Shown: positions 2,429 to 43,747 of the stretch, piece by piece
Layout of the letters: each line of letters opens with the position of its first letter
How positions within the stretch are numbered: the first letter of the stretch is position 1
Assembly (NCBI GenBank): GCA_900314995.1
Contig: OMXK01000021.1
Coordinates: 1-50,966, forward strand
Source: an uncultured Prevotella sp.
GTDB lineage: Bacteria; Bacteroidota; Bacteroidia; Bacteroidales; Bacteroidaceae
Reading direction: 5' to 3'
Length of the DNA: 50,966 nt
Position numbers and translations under genes: made by a program
The notes under the pieces: model-generated
The model's input: only the letters and a program-made list of their open reading frames with translations
Told to the model about the DNA's origin: nothing
Database searches by the model: none

Positions 2429-3631
2429 ATGGCAAACAAAAAAGTAGTAGTCGCATTTTCCGGAGGACTCGACACCTCTTATACTGTAATGAAGTTAACC
2501 CAGGACGGCTGGGATGTCTATGCAGCCTGCGCCAATACTGGCGGTTTCAGCGAGGAACAGCTGAAGAAGAACGAAGAGAACGCCTATAAGCTGGGCGCAG
2601 TTCAGTACGTAACCCTCGATGTAACCCACGAGTATTACGAGAAGTCGCTGAAGTACATGATCTTTGGCAATGTGCTGCGCAACAACTGCTATCCCATCTC
2701 CGTCTCTTCTGAGCGTATCTTCCAGGCAATCGCCATTGCCCGCTATGCCAAAGAGATTGGTGCCGATGCTATTGCACACGGTTCGACAGGAGCAGGCAAC
2801 GATCAGATCCGCTTCGACATGACCTTCCTGGTGATGGCTCCCGGCGTAGAGATCATTACGCTGACTCGCGACAAGAAGCTGACCCGTAAGGAAGAGGTAG
2901 ACTTCCTGAACGAACACGGATTCTTCGCTGATTTCACCAAACTGAAGTATTCTTATAACGTAGGTATCTGGGGCACCAGTATCTGTGGCGGCGAACTGCT
3001 CGACCCCACTCAGGGACTCCCCGAAGACGCTTATCTGAAGCACGTTACGGCCAAGGAACAGGAGTCGCTGCTGAAGATCACCTTCGAGAAGGGCGAGATT
3101 GTTGCCGTGAATGGCGAGCACTTCGACGACAAGGTGAAAGCCATCCAGAAGATCGAGGAGATCGGCGCCAGCTACGCCATCGGCCGTGATGCCAACGTAG
3201 GCGACACGATCATCGGCATCAAGGGCCGCGTAGGCTTTGAGGCCGCAGCCCCGAAACTGATCATCGAGGCCCACCGCCTGCTGGAGAAGTCTACCCTCTC
3301 CAAATGGCAGCAGTACTGGAAGGATCAGGTAGCCAACTGGTACGGTATGTTCCTCCACGAGAGCCAGTATCTGGAGCCCGTGATGCCCGATATGGAAGCC
3401 ATGCTGACTTCTTCACAGCGCAACGTGACCGGTACCTCTATCCTGAAGCTCCGTCCTTACGGCTTCGAGACCGTCGGCATCGATTCAGAGAACGACCTGA
3501 CGAAGTCGAAGCTTGGCGAATATGGCGAGACGCAGACGGGTTGGACTGCCGACGAAGCCAAGGGCTTCATCAAGGTATCCAGCACACCTCTGCGTGTTTA
3601 CTACGGTATCCACAAAGACGAAAAGAGATAA
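2429..3631 (+). CDS. argG: Argininosuccinate synthase
   Basis: Cytosolic ligase joining citrulline and aspartate with ATP hydrolysis to AMP, the penultimate arginine step. At 400 residues it has normal family length. The N-terminus has the PP-loop ATP pyrophosphatase motif VVVAFSGGLDTSY at residues 6-18. Other signatures are the HGSTGAGNDQIRFD block near residue 117 and GRDANVGDTIIGIKGRVGFEAA. It is followed by a 58-nt gap with a GC-rich hairpin, then argC. Its partner argH is not in the window. Confidence 0.97.
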   Translation: MANKKVVVAFSGGLDTSYTVMKLTQDGWDVYAACANTGGFSEEQLKKNEENAYKLGAVQYVTLDVTHEYYEKSLKYMIFGNVLRNNCYPISVSSERIFQAIAIARYAKEIGADAIAHGSTGAGNDQIRFDMTFLVMAPGVEIITLTRDKKLTRKEEVDFLNEHGFFADFTKLKYSYNVGIWGTSICGGELLDPTQGLPEDAYLKHVTAKEQESLLKITFEKGEIVAVNGEHFDDKVKAIQKIEEIGASYAIGRDANVGDTIIGIKGRVGFEAAAPKLIIEAHRLLEKSTLSKWQQYWKDQVANWYGMFLHESQYLEPVMPDMEAMLTSSQRNVTGTSILKLRPYGFETVGIDSENDLTKSKLGEYGETQTGWTADEAKGFIKVSSTPLRVYYGIHKDEKR

Positions 3632-4652: not shown

Positions 4653-4687
4653 TTGTCCGAGAATGTTGCTCAACGAGTAACCTCCAC

Positions 4688-4818
4688 TCGCATTACGACT
4701 GAAGGCTGGTTACATTACGACAAAGCATGGGTTTCCTTACGACTGAAGGATAGTCTCTCGTAAGGAAACCCATGAATTTTCGAGAGAATTTCATGGTTTA
4801 CTACCGAGAAAAGGGTAA
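4688..4818 (+). repeat. Diverged copies of a 22-bp tandem repeat, direct and inverted
   Basis: Three exact-period 22-nt units follow each other: 4688-4709, 4710-4731 and 4732-4753, with core TTACxxTACGAC. A fourth unit at 4797-4818 has core CTACCGAGAAA. The 43 nt between the third and fourth contain units in inverted orientation. The same 22-nt period and core form an array at 40329-40460, upstream of a VirE-type ATPase gene. The units are too diverged to be a recent duplication. Confidence 0.75.
4726..4774 (+). repeat. Perfect 17-bp inverted repeat in the argC-argD gap
   Basis: CATGGGTTTCCTTACGA (4726-4742) is exactly complementary to 4758-4774, with a 15-nt loop. A weaker inverted repeat, CATGAA to TTCATG, follows at once (4771-4795). 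The stem arises from head-to-head 22-bp units. There is no T tract, so a simple terminator role is doubtful. Confidence 0.85.
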
Positions 4819-4938
4819 AATACAGGGGACAAAACCCTAGTTTGCAGTAATATAATTGAGGTGAAATAGCTTTCTGACTTCAACATCCACTAAATTTGAC
4901 ATATCATTCTGACTTACTGAATCTTATGTTATATTTAT

Positions 4939-4971
4939 ACCTCCACTTAACCTCCACTAAACCTCCACTAA
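4939..4971 (+). repeat. 11-bp tandem repeat, three copies
   Basis: ACCTCCACTTA, ACCTCCACTAA, ACCTCCACTAA in direct succession, with a related single unit ACATCCACTAA at 4883-4893. This is part of the 475-nt gap 4653-5125. Apart from these repeats, three TATGCA motifs (5019, 5030, 5049) and the argD promoter, I see nothing else in the gap. Confidence 0.85.
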
Positions 4972-5094
4972 ATCTAATGACATCCAACAGTTCAGACAAC
5001 CAGCACAAAGGTTATGTGTATGCAGTTTATATGCAGAAAGCGCCTTTTTATGCAAAAAGATGAAGAAATATGCCGATTTATCGGATTTTTGCAG

Positions 5095-26027: not shown

Positions 26028-26059
26028 CAAAATTACTCATTTCTTTTGAATTACGCAAG
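26028..26059 (-). promoter_or_regulatory. Promoter of rpmH
   Basis: Minus strand CTTG (26056-26059), 20-nt spacer, TAATTTTG (26028-26035). Transcription would start near 26021, giving a leader of about 40 nt. The efp -7 element TAACTTTG (26131-26138, plus) lies on the other side of this divergent region. Confidence 0.7.
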
Positions 26060-26175
26060 TTTTCTGTGAAAATTAGCACAACTTTTTGTGTTTTTTTCCA
26101 AAAAAGCAGAGATTTCACGAATAAAATAAGTAACTTTGCAGCCGAAAACGAAACAATAGTAACATTTTTAGGTAT

Positions 26176-38260: not shown

Positions 38261-39958
38261 TTATGCCATTGCGTCAAATTCACCCTTCAGCCAGTCCATG
38301 CGCGTGTTCAGCCAGTCCTCCATAGCATAGACACTGGTCTGGTAAAGCGCCCATACCTGATCACCAGCGATCAGGTCAGAGGAGAACGTATACCACTTAT
38401 TATTATCTTCCTGAATCGCATATTTCAGGTACTGAGCCATATTGCTGACCTCGGTGATAATATCATTCTTGTGGCTATAGAAAAAGTCATAGCGTTCCTT
38501 CACCTTTGCCACAAATACCGGATCCTCGAATAGACGGGCATACCAATTCACGTTCTTGATGACAAAGCCGTTAGGGCTGGCATCAACGCTGAAAGCCTTC
38601 TCGAAGTCCCATAGCGGACCCATCTTCAGTTTTCCGCCACGTGTCAGGTTCATCATACAGTCGCTCCTGAAAGCACCGTTCTCATTCTTTGATATCTCAT
38701 TAATCAGATACCAGTCAACAAACGAGTCAATATCCATATACTTCTGCCAGCCATTTGACTCATCAGTAAAGTCAGATGAGAAAAGCGCATTCTCTGCGGT
38801 GGCAACGAAATTACTGACATAGTCTACACTGGCGTCAGACTGAGATGAACTCGGGGCAATCACACTCACTGCCCTTTCAAGATGATCTGTAGTGAAAGAC
38901 GGACCATAAGTGCTGGCACCAATACCGAGCACGAAACCATCAGAGCCCACATTCACCCTTCCTTCCGATGCCTCAAGATCCTCACCCATCAGATAAGTAC
39001 CATAATATCTGCCGTTCATCAGCAGATTGACATGATAGAAACGTGGGGTATATTCCAAAGCACTGATACTGCTCAGATAAAAAGCGGTCTGTTTATGCAA
39101 CATTGTTTTATCACCTGTGTTTGTATAAAACTCCCAAGCCTTACCTGCAGGCGCATCAAACAAAGATATATTTTCGTTAAAGAGTATGGAATAGGCGTTC
39201 TTGCCTAACTGAAGGTCTTCATGAATGCGCGAACGATACCAATATACTGGTCCGACAATCATCATCTTTGCATTTGCCTGGGTGATGTAGGCATTCTCAC
39301 TCGTACCTGGGGTGGCTGCCAGCTTCAGTCGGCCGTTGAAGTACTGTCCCGACGTCTCGATGTCTTTATGGGTGGTCGTCTCCAGCCATACTGTCGGCAG
39401 TCCGGTATAGGCGCCCACATAAACCGTATAATCCTTGATTGTCTTTGGTGTAATGATGCTTAGCACCACAGGCTGACTGAAATCAATCTCGGAAACACCG
39501 CTTTCAACTTCTTCGCCATTGATGGTCACAACAGAACCTTGGAAAGTAAAGCGAGGAATCAGGACCTTACTACTTGTAATATTCAGGATTCTGCACTCCA
39601 CCGCACTGTCGCCAATGATAGTGCACTTCACGTTTTCGATCAGTTGCAGAGGATTATCAGCAGCAACAAATTCCATGGAGAGCAACTTCGGTTCAACAGT
39701 GTTAAGGCTATCCTCCAGTTCTAGCAAGTGCTGACGTATCTTTTCGTTTTCCTCCTGACGTTTTCTTACCTCAGCCTCGAGTGCATCACTCTCTTTGTCG
39801 AGCCTTTCACTCTCTTTTTTGGCATCATCGTACTTCTTTTCAAGATTAGCACCTTCTTTTTCAAGACCAGTAAGCTTCTCTTCAATACCACTAAGGTCTG
39901 TGCTACATGAAATCAGGCCAATCAAGGCAACGGCTACAAAAACTAGTTTCTTCATCAT
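38261..39958 (-). CDS. CotH-family lipoprotein with degenerate kinase motifs (paralogue 3)
   Basis: A 565-residue lipoprotein with lipobox GLISC (Cys19), a strong coiled coil at about 22-90, and the same LLSMEF linker and CotH-like fold as paralogue 2. Conserved motifs are altered. The GRGN(T/M)xW block is VGPVYWYRS (near 233), the PKK lysines are gone (QLGKNAYSILF), DKSMLRN is DKTMLHK, and WDFD is WDFE (near 450). It may be a pseudokinase or a binding partner of paralogue 2. It is first in the two-gene unit; -7 TAACTTTG at 39992-39999 (minus) precedes it without a -33 match. Confidence 0.8.
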   Translation of the reverse strand: MMKKLVFVAVALIGLISCSTDLSGIEEKLTGLEKEGANLEKKYDDAKKESERLDKESDALEAEVRKRQEENEKIRQHLLELEDSLNTVEPKLLSMEFVAADNPLQLIENVKCTIIGDSAVECRILNITSSKVLIPRFTFQGSVVTINGEEVESGVSEIDFSQPVVLSIITPKTIKDYTVYVGAYTGLPTVWLETTTHKDIETSGQYFNGRLKLAATPGTSENAYITQANAKMMIVGPVYWYRSRIHEDLQLGKNAYSILFNENISLFDAPAGKAWEFYTNTGDKTMLHKQTAFYLSSISALEYTPRFYHVNLLMNGRYYGTYLMGEDLEASEGRVNVGSDGFVLGIGASTYGPSFTTDHLERAVSVIAPSSSQSDASVDYVSNFVATAENALFSSDFTDESNGWQKYMDIDSFVDWYLINEISKNENGAFRSDCMMNLTRGGKLKMGPLWDFEKAFSVDASPNGFVIKNVNWYARLFEDPVFVAKVKERYDFFYSHKNDIITEVSNMAQYLKYAIQEDNNKWYTFSSDLIAGDQVWALYQTSVYAMEDWLNTRMDWLKGEFDAMA

Positions 39959-40123
39959 ATCACAAATACATTAATTTTACGTAAGACGCTGCAAAGTTAA
40001 TCATTTTTTTGCATCCAATGCATCATTTATCGTAATTTTTCGTCTAAAGAGGCCAAATTTGCAGATAACCGCCTTCTTATATAATAAGGTTCACATTATG
40101 TGAAAAAATGAAGTAATAATTTT

Positions 40124-40190
40124 TTCTGCCACTCTGCCACCGATACTTGAAAATAGCATTATATAAAGCAAGATCGAGGTGGTGGCAGAA
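40124..40190 (+). repeat. TGCCACC inverted-repeat module, left of the VirE-type gene
   Basis: TTCTGCCACTCTGCCACC (40124-40141) faces GGTGGTGGCAGAA (40178-40190). GGTGGCAGAATGG (40181-40193) recurs exactly at 42420-42432 downstream of the gene. Further TGGCAGAAAG (40201) and CTGCCAGAA (40242) lie nearby. Between paralogue 3 and 40124 (39959-40123) I see only the paralogue 3 promoter. Confidence 0.75.
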
Positions 40191-40253
40191 TGGTTGTAGA
40201 TGGCAGAAAGCTGCTAAAAAAGCTACGAATAGACAGAAAAACTGCCAGAAAAA

Positions 40254-40285
40254 TTTGGAAAATCAGGGAAAAAGTCGTATCTTTG
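40254..40285 (+). promoter_or_regulatory. Promoter of the VirE-type ATPase gene
   Basis: TTTG (40254-40257), 20 nt, TATCTTTG (40278-40285): perfect consensus. Transcription from about 40292 puts all six 22-bp repeats in the 5' UTR. Confidence 0.8.
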
Positions 40286-40328
40286 TAGGCGAAAACGCTC
40301 CCATCCTTACAAGGAATCTGACGGGGAG

Positions 40329-40460
40329 TCACATACCTACAAACTCATAGTTATATACCGACAAAGCAACAGTTACATACCGACAAACGCATAGTTACAT
40401 TACGAGAAACTAGTTGTTTCCTACCGAGAAACAAAGTGTTTCCTACCGAGAAACAATCGG
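40329..40460 (+). repeat. Six tandem 22-bp iteron-like repeats
   Basis: Six units of exactly 22 nt without gaps start at 40329, 40351, 40373, 40395, 40417 and 40439. The consensus core is TTaCaTACCGAcAAAC in the first three and TTtCcTACCGAGAAAC in the last two. The array ends 33 nt before the ATG of the VirE-type ATPase gene. The fixed period (two helical turns) and position resemble replication iterons or a protein-binding array. There are no spacers, so it is not CRISPR. Confidence 0.9.
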
Positions 40461-40493
40461 AAACAAATAATAAAAGATACACGATACAAGCAA

Positions 40494-42341
40494 ATGAAAC
40501 TGACATTAGTACTACGCGACAAGAAGAAAGCGCTGAAGGTATCCACGAAGACCATCGAGCGCTTCATCGAACGCATCCAGACTGACACCAAGGACCGTGC
40601 GGTGAGCCGCCGCCGCAAACAGCTGAAGAAGCTCGACTATATCGGGAGCTACGACAAACAGAACCCGCCACGGCTCGTCTATCCCAGCGCAGAGTTCGAG
40701 AAGGATGCCAACGACAACCTGCGCATGAAGACCTTCAACGGTGTGGTGGCACTTACCGTCGGCGGTCTGGAGAGTCCGGCAGACATTGAAGCCGTGAAGC
40801 ACGCGGCCCGGATCCTGCACTACACCCTCGCCGCCTTCACGGGAGCCTCGGAGGAGGAGGTGATCATCCTCGTGAAGATTGCCGCACAGGACGACACGGC
40901 TCCCACGGAGGAAGAGGCCGACGCCCTGTGCGAGAAAGGCCACCGACTGGCCTCCGCCCTCTATCAGGCCATCCTGCCGAAGACCGTCAGGCGAGAGAAG
41001 GCATCCGTCTCCAGCTGCTTCCTCATGCCGCTCGACGAACAGCCCTACTTCAACCCCAAGGCGATGGCCCTGCCCGTGAGCGAGAAGCCGGAAGCGTGGG
41101 AACAGTCACGAGACCTCGCGGACAGCCGCAACAGCACCGACAGCCTCGACGAGGAGATGGACGAGGACGCAATGGCCGTCAGCCAGGAGACCCAGCGGCT
41201 CATGGACTTCCTGAATGCCCGCTACGAGTTCCGCTACAACACCATCATGGGCTATACGGAGCACAGGAGCCGCGACGACAGCCATCTGGAAGCCGCCTGG
41301 AAGCCCGTCGACGACCGTTCGCTGAAGGGGCTGACGATGAAAGTGCGACTCAGCGGCATCGATGCCCGCGAGAACGACGTGCGGCGCTACGTGCAGTCGG
41401 ACATGATCACAGCCTACAACCCCATCGGCGAATTCCTCTGGGAACAGTACTACAAATGGGACGGCAAGGACCACATCCGACAGCTGGCAAGGACCGTGCC
41501 CACGAGCAACCCCCACTGGGAAGACTGGTTCTACACATGGTTCCTCGGCATGGTGCGCCAGTGGCAGGAGACGAATCTCGCTAAATACGGCAATCAGGCC
41601 GTGCCGCTGCTCATCTCCAAGCAGGGATGGAACAAGACCACCTTCTGCGAACAGCTGCTGCCGCCGAAGCTGAGATGGGGCTACACGGGCAACCTGCAGA
41701 TGGACGACAAGAAGCAGGTGCTCCAGCAGATGGCGCAGATGCTGCTCATCAACCTCGACGAGTTCAACCAGATCTCACCGCGCATACAGCAGGGATTCCT
41801 GAAGAACCTGATCACCCTCTCGTCTGTCAAGATAAAGCGTCCCTACGGCAGACACGTGGAAGACTTCCCCCGCCGCGCCTCGTTCATCGCCACCACTAAC
41901 CAGGCCGATGTGCTGGCAGACCCATCAGGCAGCCGCCGTTTCCTCGGCGTGGAGCTGACGGGTCCCATCGACGTGAGCACGCCGCCCAACTACGAGCAGC
42001 TCTACGCCCAGGCCATGCGCGCCCTGCACCAGCATAACCACCCCTACTACTTCGGCCCCGCCGAGATCAAGCAAATCATGGCGAGTAACAGCAAGTTCAG
42101 CGTCAAGACGGCTGCCGAGCAGTTCTTCTTCGACTACTTCGAGCCCACGGACAACGAGGAAGAAGGCGAGTGGATCAGTCCTACCGCCATCTTCAATTTC
42201 CTAAAAGGAAAAGTGGGTGTCAGTATGCTGAAGCCGATGGCCGTTTCCGCCTTCGGACGCAGACTTTCCGCCATACCGGGCATCAAGAAAGACGAGAACA
42301 AATACGGAACAATCTACTTGGTAAAGCGAAAAAAATCCTGA
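40494..42341 (+). CDS. VirE/BT4734-type protein: primase-like N-terminus and SF3 ATPase/helicase-like domain
   Basis: A 615-residue protein with visibly higher GC than the neighbouring CotH genes. Residues about 1-190 match the BT4734-like VirE N-terminal (primase-like) pattern (TFNGVVALTVGG, VIILVKIA, SSCFLMPLDEQPYFNP); the acidic DxD of true primases is not visible. Residues about 320-560 form the VirE/VapE ATPase. It has EFLWEQYYKWDGKDHI, an unusual Walker A QGWNKTTFC (Asn where Gly of GK(S/T) is expected, near 377-384), Walker B LLINLDEF and the arginine finger SGSRRF (near 480). Likely an element-encoded replication ATPase; it is flanked by repeats on both sides and has no integrase. Confidence 0.85.
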   Translation: MKLTLVLRDKKKALKVSTKTIERFIERIQTDTKDRAVSRRRKQLKKLDYIGSYDKQNPPRLVYPSAEFEKDANDNLRMKTFNGVVALTVGGLESPADIEAVKHAARILHYTLAAFTGASEEEVIILVKIAAQDDTAPTEEEADALCEKGHRLASALYQAILPKTVRREKASVSSCFLMPLDEQPYFNPKAMALPVSEKPEAWEQSRDLADSRNSTDSLDEEMDEDAMAVSQETQRLMDFLNARYEFRYNTIMGYTEHRSRDDSHLEAAWKPVDDRSLKGLTMKVRLSGIDARENDVRRYVQSDMITAYNPIGEFLWEQYYKWDGKDHIRQLARTVPTSNPHWEDWFYTWFLGMVRQWQETNLAKYGNQAVPLLISKQGWNKTTFCEQLLPPKLRWGYTGNLQMDDKKQVLQQMAQMLLINLDEFNQISPRIQQGFLKNLITLSSVKIKRPYGRHVEDFPRRASFIATTNQADVLADPSGSRRFLGVELTGPIDVSTPPNYEQLYAQAMRALHQHNHPYYFGPAEIKQIMASNSKFSVKTAAEQFFFDYFEPTDNEEEGEWISPTAIFNFLKGKVGVSMLKPMAVSAFGRRLSAIPGIKKDENKYGTIYLVKRKKS

Positions 42342-42350
42342 TTTTCGCTA

Positions 42351-42439
42351 TTTACTGCCACCAGGCGCGATTCTGCCACCACCACGGAGCACCTGCATTT
42401 AAGGGCATTTCCAAAGGTCGGTGGCAGAATGGCAGTAAA
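42351..42439 (+). repeat. TGCCACC inverted-repeat module, right of the VirE-type gene
   Basis: TTTACTGCCA (42351-42360) pairs with TGGCAGTAAA (42430-42439) and TTCTGCCACC (42371-42380) with GGTGGCAGAA (42420-42429), all exact. The left side has an extra 10-nt spacer, and a 39-nt loop closes the structure. It starts 9 nt after the stop codon. Together with the left module it brackets a 2.3-kb unit. Confidence 0.85.
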
Positions 42440-42498
42440 TTTCCAAAATTATTGCAACAGATTCTCTTCACACCGTGCCGTGCCGTTGATAAACACAA

Positions 42499-42530
42499 AA
42501 AATCCCGCTCAGACAAAGAGCGGGATTTTT
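42499..42530 (+). terminator. Strong bidirectional terminator
   Basis: AAAATCCCGCTC (42499-42510) and GAGCGGGATTTT (42518-42529) form a perfect 12-bp stem with a 7-nt loop and A/T tails on both strands. It serves the VirE-type gene (plus) and ackA (minus, stop at 42554). Confidence 0.92.
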
Positions 42531-42553
42531 CTATCATGTAGTAAGGTGAAAAA

Positions 42554-43747
42554 CTACTTCAGCAGATTCATGGTGTCGGTAGCAATCATCAGCTCCTCAT
42601 CTGTAGGAATGACAACCACCTTCACCTTGGAGTCGTCGGCGGAGATAACGGCTTCCTCGCCACGGACATTGTTCTTCGACTCATCGAACTTGATGCCGAG
42701 GAACTCCATGTTCTTGCAGACCTCAGAACGCATGCCAATCTGGTTCTCGCCGACACCGGCGGTGAACACCACGACATCGAGGCCACCCATGGCAGCAGCA
42801 TAGGCACCAATATATTTCTTAATGCGATAGAAATACATGTCCTGGGCCAGCTGTGCACGAGCATCACCCTTCTTAGCTGCATTCTCCACGTCGCGCATGT
42901 CACTAGAGCCGCCTGTCACGCCAGCCACACCACTCTTCTTGTTGAGCAGATTCGACATACCGTCGGCATCGAGGCCCAGTTTCTTCTCAATGAAAGTCAC
43001 TGCACCACCGTCGATATCGCCAGCACGGGTACCCATCATGAGACCCTCCAGCGGCGTAAGACCCATGGACGTATCGATACACTTGCCGTCGACCACTGCA
43101 GCGATAGAGCCACCGTTGCCCACATGGCAAGTTACCATCTTGGTGCCCTCTGCGGGAATGCCCAGGAACTCACAGGCACGGGCAGAGACATAACGGTGAG
43201 AAGTACCGTGGAAGCCATAGCGACGGATACCATACTTCTCATACAACTCGTAAGGAATGGCATACATAAAAGCCTTGGGAGGCATGGTCTGGTGGAAGGC
43301 AGTATCAAACACACCCACCTGAGGCAGACCAGGCATCAGCTCCTTCACGGCATTCACACCCTTCAGGTTTGCCGGGTTGTGCAGCGGTGCAAGGTCAGAG
43401 CACTCCTCGAAGGTCTTCAGCACCTCATCAGTGAGGATAACAGACTTATTGAACTTCTCACCGCCGTGCACCATACGATGGCCTACGGCATTGATCTCGT
43501 CAAGACTCTTGATAACACCAATTTCGGGATCAGTAAGCAGGGAGAAGATAAACTTCACGCCCTCGGTATGCTCGGGGATGTCGTGCATAATCTGCTTCTT
43601 TTCGCCATTGGCCAGCTTTACCTTTACGAAAGCGCCATCGAGGCCTACACGCTCGGCGCCACCACTGGTCATCACACTCTTGTCGTCCATGTTGTACAGA
43701 GCATACTTGATAGACGACGAGCCACAATTCAAAACAAGGATTTTCAT
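42554..43747 (-). CDS. ackA: Acetate kinase
   Basis: Reversible transfer of phosphate between acetyl phosphate and ADP, yielding ATP and acetate. A 397-residue ASKHA-fold enzyme: VLNCGSSSIKY at the N-terminus, GHRMVHGGEKF, FDTAFHQTMP, RRYGFHGTSHRYV, CHVGNGGSIAAVVDGKCIDTSMG, and VFTAGVGENQ near the C-terminus. The length is normal. It is 53 nt downstream of pta across a polypyrimidine tract, forming the standard acetogenic pair. Confidence 0.97.
   Translation of the reverse strand: MKILVLNCGSSSIKYALYNMDDKSVMTSGGAERVGLDGAFVKVKLANGEKKQIMHDIPEHTEGVKFIFSLLTDPEIGVIKSLDEINAVGHRMVHGGEKFNKSVILTDEVLKTFEECSDLAPLHNPANLKGVNAVKELMPGLPQVGVFDTAFHQTMPPKAFMYAIPYELYEKYGIRRYGFHGTSHRYVSARACEFLGIPAEGTKMVTCHVGNGGSIAAVVDGKCIDTSMGLTPLEGLMMGTRAGDIDGGAVTFIEKKLGLDADGMSNLLNKKSGVAGVTGGSSDMRDVENAAKKGDARAQLAQDMYFYRIKKYIGAYAAAMGGLDVVVFTAGVGENQIGMRSEVCKNMEFLGIKFDESKNNVRGEEAVISADDSKVKVVVIPTDEELMIATDTMNLLK

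Follow-up and report, generated by a model that had tools for sequence, protein, structure and literature searches.

An uncultured Prevotella sp. carries, on contig OMXK01000021.1, a gene for a superfamily 3 (SF3) ATPase of the BT4734/VapE family that lies between two inverted-repeat modules. The whole stretch analysed, 50,966 nucleotides, is called the window here, and the modules with everything between them the unit. The gene is an intact open reading frame (ORF) of 615 aa on the forward strand (40494-42341, from the ORF list and domain calls), as an earlier reading of this DNA from its letters alone (the original prediction) had proposed for a primase-like/SF3-ATPase. Its product matches the Pfam families BT4734-like_N (residues 62-186), VapE/SF3 (320-534) and DUF3874 (539-610) at 55.2, 111.5 and 57.2 bits, all above the cut-off. 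From the comparisons below, we think the region is probably a gene-bearing copy of a selfish gene-plus-repeats system, with an SF3 ATPase that carries a DUF3874 reader as the product of its cognate gene.

The left end module (40116-40215, forward strand) is a terminal inverted repeat that reads CTGCCA at 40126, CTGCCACC at 40134, an AT-rich spacer, GGTGGTGGCAG at 40178-40188 and TGGCAG at 40201. The right end module (42346-42445, reverse strand) is an inverted copy of it, with CTGCCACC at 42355, CTGCCACCACC at 42373, GGTGGCAG at 42420 and TGGCAG at 42430. They score 83.8 and 83.4 bits against R2, a covariance model of 39 modules that includes both of these sequences and replaced a model, R1, whose inner helix was shifted. 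The modules share the 13-mer GGTGGCAGAATGG exactly (40181-40193 and 42420-42432, with inverted partners at 40129-40141 and 42368-42380), as had been predicted, and these are its only two exact occurrences in the genome; with one mismatch it is not enriched genome-wide (11 places against 19 for the reversed control). The shorter CTGCCACC occurs seven times in the window against 1.3 expected, a count reached in none of 100 shuffles, and five of the seven copies fall in the two modules.

Outside the left module lies an AT-rich flank that opens with the palindrome TTCACATTATGTGAA (40091-40125, forward strand), the probable left boundary, and outside the right one a similar AT-rich flank reaching as far as TTCACAC (42446-42475, reverse strand), the probable right boundary. 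Comparable outer sequence, CACRYGTGA followed by AATTTT and AAATTTG, stands beyond the modules of several other elements. Because this outer sequence is conserved, the unit probably ends near 40091 and 42475, with the modules as terminal inverted repeats (TIRs) of about 95 bp, and the extent first proposed, 40124-42439, would be too short.

Two further predictions for the region ahead of the gene were borne out. A promoter-like TTTG (40254) with TATCTTTG (40278-40285), read by eye on the forward strand, stands between the left module and six gapless 22-bp repeats (40327-40458, forward strand; 35 of 44 matches at lag 22), which presumably lie in a transcribed leader. We take TTTG/TATCTTTG to be a promoter of the Bacteroidota type. 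The gene is also GC-richer (0.594, and 0.825 at third codon positions) than the two genes to its left (0.440 and 0.455), as had been noticed; ackA stands at 0.529. No HU, amidase or integrase gene lies near the unit by the ORF list alone, the neighbours not having been run against family libraries.

Related elements and their end modules

A scan of species genomes returned 29 relatives, 61-77% identical and under the titles Prevotella, Prevotellaceae or Bacteroidales, and the element set compared here holds the 27 elements with a readable left end, the window included. Both inverted ends were recognised in 22 of these, at near-constant spacing. Two modules of about 95 bp bracket the one gene, or two genes in many relatives, where the additional gene encodes a DUF6078 protein. 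Every module is internally palindromic, with outer arms, an AT-rich spacer and inner arms; the outer arms are typically 8 bp apart, with 45-50 bp to the inner arm and a further 11-18 bp to the last. Arm positions pair in 91.7% of cells against 82.7% after shuffling, double changes number 68 against 30 (a value reached in none of 500 shuffles), and three of five pairing measures beat all 500 shuffles.

The arm motif differs among elements (CTGCCACC, CTGCCACA, CTACCACC, CTACCATG), and the two ends of an element resemble each other, with a mean identity of 0.778 against 0.652 between elements (as high in none of 10,000 permutations); for 14 of 22 elements the best match is the element's own partner end. 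On the gene tree the motif labels show hardly any clustering, with 14 changes against 15.7 after shuffling, a number as low in 23 of 200 shuffles. In one relative (L087, 5629-7435) the helicase gene is interrupted, with 443 aa to the first stop, and both end modules are there.

By our own reading the 27 elements occupy 24 sites; the automatic count was 22, since L076, L077 and L084 are linked only through a 153-162-bp repeat, and the same site in distant species may have been counted twice. Six matches to the gene come from a single draft genome (G099, CAMJDL bin.90), five of them with 71-77% identity and the sixth with 50%. The search at other loci that the original prediction had called for thus found the gene repeatedly, and the proposal of an undescribed single-gene mobile element is partly supported: 24 sites among 27 elements, 22 of them with both ends, point in its direction, as do the several matches in G099 and 19 ackA loci in other genomes, where neither the gene nor the CotH-like neighbour turned up in the stretch of up to 1.5 kb retrieved (at L108 a contig end truncates it).

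Iterons had been made part of the layout as well, and they proved optional. In the 17 elements with a long leader (left end and start codon at least 368 bp apart) the repeats score best at lag 22, with at least 31/44 in eight and 26-30 in nine, and in the ten with a short leader the best lag is not 22. A DUF6078 gene stands ahead of the array in most long-leader elements (an ORF in ten loci, others by eye; identity with Pfam PF19555 tested for two loci), and the window and L090 have the array without it. The DUF6078 proteins of relatives match no transposase or recombinase family in Pfam, and their predicted model is poor (mean pLDDT, a per-residue confidence score, of 58) and was not interpreted. 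By eye, 22-bp arrays of GTTCCGACGTCA or TTGTTCAGACGTC type also occur near L066, L071, L076, L081 and L086, and in L066 and L071 they stand at the expected position of the right module.

Arm bases and the DUF3874 domain

The variation in arm motif is mirrored in the protein. We labelled 22 elements by base 3 of the arm, assigning arm labels by eye, and compared 569 column splits over the whole protein. Position 601 gave the best split: E occupies it in 11 of the 12 CTGCCA elements, L082 having Q instead, and in none of the ten CTACCA elements; no permutation of 5000 did as well, and the family-wise p is <0.0002 with kinship not modelled, the next column having p 0.82. For arm base 7 the best column was 603, where K occurs in 10 of 11 elements of one label and in 0 of 10 of the other (p 0.001, kinship again not modelled), followed by 605 (p 0.015). 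Arm base 6 (best column 607, p 0.125) and the base before the arm (best column 583, p 0.089) gave no significant column, so that two of the four label scans, those of bases 3 and 7, reached p<0.05. All five positions (583, 601, 603, 605 and 607) lie inside DUF3874. Left out of the scans were L064 and L083 (mixed arms), L067 and L070 (near copies), L087 (broken gene) and L079, L089 and L091 (partial); L064 was kept for the base before the arm, and L085 (mixed) was dropped for base 7.

The association at 601 held in all five elements outside the discovery set: L179, L185, L264 and L268 combine E with TGCCA, and L191 combines V with TACCA. A natural contrast is offered by L073, with T601 and TACCACC, and L075, with E601 and TGCCACC. 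Loci already used or set aside (L251, L252, L261, L262, L270, L271, L272, L274) are not counted as new. On the gene tree, with 24 rows, the base-3 label changes eight times and residue 601 nine times, and independent pairs go in the expected direction in 2.9 of 3 on average and never in the opposite one. More distant relatives have mostly R or H at 601 and motifs of other kinds, and the code is for this reason known only for the present clade. Since residues 601 and 603 covary with arm bases 3 and 7, it is strongly suggested that the protein binds the module arms through its C-terminal DUF3874, whose coding stretch (residues 539-610; 42108-42323, forward strand) is the probable module reader.

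The remainder of the protein resembles replication helicases. Seven residues, G378, K381, D422, E423, N469, R481 and R482, are invariant in 25 aligned sequences, and we take them to be the SF3 Walker A lysine, Walker B, sensor and arginine finger. Among proteins of known structure the closest in sequence is 7pds, "similar to D. nodosus vapE" (E 1e-6), presumably a Rep-type helicase of a staphylococcal pathogenicity island (SaPI). Matches in PHROGs are phage helicases and primases, the best PADLOC match is a CRISPR-associated PrimPol model, and NCBIfam returned no match. Priming by the BT4734 domain is doubtful, because the first Asp is absent from the putative primase motif I (DxD): the stretch reads ALTVGGL, LTIDGL and the like, and the Asp occurs in none of 31 aligned rows. 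Searches of Pfam, NCBIfam and PHROGs found no Y1/HUH tyrosine transposase, no transposase or recombinase, and no integrase or capsid domain in the protein. On the best reading of these comparisons, the SF3 ATPase with its DUF3874 reader would be the only constant protein of the system.

Solo modules, arrays and further families

Modules without a gene, mostly beside 21-22-bp arrays, sit between genes of the same genomes. R2 has hits at E<=0.01 in 44 of 150 genomes of the genus, many of the genomes compared being drafts; 22 genomes have at least three hits and 13 a single one, both strands counted. Module hits follow the gene: among the 36 genomes that match the gene at E<=1e-80, 24 have them, as do 20 of the other 114 (Fisher 7e-8), and at least three hits occur in all eight genomes with a close gene (at least 69%) as against 14 of the remaining 142. 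The modules therefore do occur as dispersed repeats without the gene, an outcome that the original prediction had counted against a mobile element, yet they do so as a family that tracks the gene.

Eight genomes are rich in modules, with 6-11 distinct ones each, and 44 modules were fetched from seven of them (G146, with 17 hits, was left out). Thirty-three of the 44 are solo, with no gene match in roughly 2 kb on each side; among them L170 is cut by the contig end and is perhaps the end of a whole element, and L165 has a motif of a different family. ORFs of at least 150 aa contain none of the 33, compared with 395 of 660 random positions. For 11 of the 22 solos tested (those of G121 and L165 were left out) the closest gene-flanking module came from the solo's own genome, where 1.36 were expected. 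Arrays of period 21/22 stand within 450 bp on either side of 26 of the 44 modules, 24 of the 33 solos included, against arrays of lag 15-30 at the same score in 2 of 137 control windows of 450 bp; these windows are single and half the length of the module surroundings, and six of the 44 modules are near copies. Array sequences vary from genome to genome. These comparisons show the modules to be dispersed.

At L183 (1875-2969) both modules and DUF6078 are kept and the helicase match is confined to residues 585-614, an internal deletion. Six gene-less units of G121 have 265-485 bp in common at 92-95%, and at L118 a single module is joined to the right flank of L075. The 3' end of the gene at the L163 site (2560-3050) is suggested to be a hot spot, because behind the same gene the relatives L202-L205 hold stretches of similar plan with other motifs, read by eye. 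A short palindrome, CACACGGGGAC...CCCCGTGTGAG, lies beside units and elsewhere (L171, L173, L207, L210) and is perhaps another dispersed repeat.

Genes of the BT4734/VapE type are frequent in the genus of the window, with matches in 16 of 24 genomes and several per genome, and many have repeats of their own. In the same genome, arrays of period 22 or 23 lie in the 2.2 kb upstream of seven of nine other BT4734 loci (L212-L220), two of the nine (L212 and L218) have inverted repeats on both sides at E<1e-5, and gene-specific arm motifs can be read by eye upstream of several. Inverted repeats surround the gene at 15 of 24 further loci (E<=1e-4); without the five loci of at least 67% identity the count is 10 of 19, with various motifs. 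Among four relatives from Bacteroides, Parabacteroides or faecal scaffolds, L113 (E 1.5e-12) and L114 (8e-10) have inverted repeats and three have a 22-bp array. The core TTACGACAAAC occurs 37 times in the window's own genome against once for the reversed pattern, several of these places lie in arrays holding AAATTCTCGAGAGAATTT or a close form, and the core is common to arrays beside different BT4734 genes. Twenty TTACGACAAAC places were read without a control, and several, with octamers in both orientations, suggest further families. At L166/L220 (contig C73) two TTCCACT modules lie as a pair upstream of a BT4734 gene, and contig C34 has a solo with this motif (L165).

The window itself contains a gene-less unit of the same general kind at 4683-4975 (strand not assigned), with a 22-bp array, an AT palindrome and a CCTCCACT half-module. 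It is identical over 34 of 34 bp to a stretch upstream of the BT4734 gene on contig C43 (L214). A short period-22 array lies at 26049-26090.

Proposed mechanism and alternative explanations

We infer that the gene is the agent and that the modules are copied. DUF3874 would seat the SF3 ring on the module arms, after which the AT-rich spacer would melt; SaPI Rep loads on its origin as an SF3 ring. A whole unit with two modules, or a gene-less unit of module plus array, could then be copied to a new intergenic site by host enzymes, which we assume, or by a separate nuclease. Gene-less units may be deletion derivatives of whole elements, since L183 keeps the ends and DUF6078 and only the last ~30 helicase residues.

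Several known systems resemble this one, and its proposed logic, selfish repeats served by a single cognate gene, is that of REPIN-RAYT. REPIN-RAYT systems consist of doublets of repetitive extragenic palindromic (REP) sequences with a REP-associated Y1/HUH tyrosine transposase. They too have short palindromic repeats dispersed between genes, a cognate gene between two of them, and several lineages with different repeat types. Here, in contrast, an SF3 AAA+ ATPase that combines DUF3874 with a BT4734-like domain takes the place of the Y1/HUH transposase, the modules are about 95 bp long and mostly have 21-22-bp arrays beside them, and a rich genome has 6-11 distinct modules rather than hundreds. 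SaPI Rep is a VapE/SF3 initiator with a C-terminal origin-binding domain. It shares with the present protein the SF3 core, a C-terminal domain that probably reads DNA (here a prediction) and repeats around an AT-rich stretch, whereas here no island, integrase or helper was seen and the sites are inverted at both ends and dispersed over the chromosome. Classical transposons and insertion sequences share the terminal inverted repeats (22 of 27 elements) and differ in that our searches of the protein found no transposase or recombinase. In domain composition the protein equals the BT4734/BF3469 and VapE-domain proteins of Bacteroidota (PF08800, PF05272, PF12990).

Several observations weigh against a selfish system driven by this gene. 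The searches of its protein found neither nuclease nor transposase in the unit. The right end was not recognised in five of 27 elements (L064, L066, L071, L076 and L082), yet their ORFs are open. The left end of the window ranks its own right end only fifth of 22, and those of L083 and L085 rank theirs 17th and 22nd; two of the five pairing measures fall within the shuffle range (295 and 53 of 500). Gene matches at E<=1e-80 are missing from 20 of the 44 genomes with module hits, many of them incomplete drafts, and R2 found no module in 12 of the 36 genomes that do match the gene. The solo L163, from the window's own genome, is nearest to an element of another species (93%). The covariation p-values ignore kinship, and three well-supported independent pairs are too few for a test; the array controls, as described above, cover less sequence than the module surroundings.

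The sites add to these points. Target-site duplications and empty sites had been proposed as checks, and at eight sites (six elements, two solo units) we found no duplication, the flanks being too diverged, and no clean empty site, even where the unit is absent from relatives; nor was any movement observed. L116, a 95.9%-identical relative, is without the element of L080 and has 115 bp of unrelated DNA in its place; the remaining sites compared show only absence, in diverged DNA. Searches with joined flanks of the same six elements and two solo units showed, among the matches listed, absence of the unit and no clean junction. The empty site of the window cannot be read, because nearly all matches listed hit ackA and start near its stop codon. 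The L173 unit is missing from four relatives, and R2 finds nothing in L202-L211.

Among the alternatives, the one that survives best, though still unlikely, holds that the modules resemble miniature inverted-repeat transposable elements (MITEs) moved by an ordinary transposase elsewhere, with the BT4734 gene a passenger or regulator that captured two copies. The lack of a nuclease in the unit and the 20 of 44 module-bearing genomes without a gene match would fit. There is also a precedent in BrickBuilt of Porphyromonas gingivalis, described as a MITE with internal 23-nt tandem repeats and short ends that match IS5-family elements (PMC4596501). BrickBuilt is likewise a dispersed intergenic unit of a Bacteroidota genome with short tandem repeats and inverted ends; it differs in its 23-nt unit and its TIRs of about 12 nt, like IS5-family ISPg elements, a comparison of end and repeat lengths made by inspection (PMC4596501). 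Neither a helicase nor VirE is mentioned in that paper's main text (PMC4596501). Against this reading, ends of about 95 bp are not short TIRs, and the motif varies by element and covaries with DUF3874 residues of the enclosed gene.

Next in order, and likewise improbable, is a remnant of a replicon or phage satellite, in which modules and array would be SF3 origins spread by a helper and the solos leftover origins. The SF3/VapE match to 7pds, the iterons, and repeats around an AT-rich spacer are what such a remnant would have, and full-length relatives at about 37-46% identity occur, among the best matches listed, in plasmid records and unverified faecal phage records. No relative was confirmed in the viral contigs scanned (8 pattern hits; close relatives only), however, and the protein has no integrase or capsid domain; two modules stand inverted at the ends rather than one origin in the centre, and the solos are below island size.

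Third, and a poor candidate in our view, the modules could be dispersed host binding sites, for nucleoid organisation, replication control or transcription insulation, with the gene encoding their binder, much as MatP binds matS. The intergenic position of all 33 solos, palindromic sites, genes that are mostly open and the covariation of protein and motif would all be expected of such sites. They are harder to reconcile with a gene of patchy occurrence (36 of 150 genomes at E<=1e-80, 16 of 396 at E<=1e-200), with single genomes that contain several genes of differing motif, with a motif that changes fast (8 times on a gene tree of 24 rows), with 24 gene sites among 27 elements and with the internal-deletion derivative L183.

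That a domesticated gene sits here in an ordinary operon, with bidirectional terminators or attenuators for modules, is highly improbable: the modules are palindromic and directly follow the stop codon in several loci, but their arms are about 36 bp apart across an AT-rich spacer with no regular T-run, the promoter comes only after the left module, arm motif and protein residues covary, and an Rfam search of 39900-42600 gave nothing above the gathering score. A terminator pair and an ordinary gene with chance repeats were both considered and dropped, as was a CRISPR-like array, which would have spacers where this one has none.

Open-access literature, to which our searches were confined (most subscription journals and bioRxiv preprints lie outside it), assigns no role to BT4734/VapE-type genes that we could find and does not name DUF3874 or DUF6078; among the papers listed, titles and abstract openings give no description of the pairing of gene and module. 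BT4734 itself is named there in two papers, once in each (one is PMC5862659), and the modules, arrays and solos are not described in the covered parts of such papers.

The selfish gene-plus-repeats reading would link BT4734/VapE-type genes to a dispersed repeat system and would allow residue-level predictions of DNA specificity. Whether it extends to a new class of Bacteroidota genome parasite is evenly balanced in our judgement; in such a class, repeats would be copied by an SF3 helicase through a readable DUF3874 protein-DNA code. Many such families would run in parallel in each genome, every gene with a palindrome of its own, and a 22-bp array motif would be common to the families of a given genome. 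If true, repeats would here be spread, or bound, by a replication-type ATPase in place of a transposase, which could account for many of the 21-22-bp minisatellites and palindromes of these genomes.

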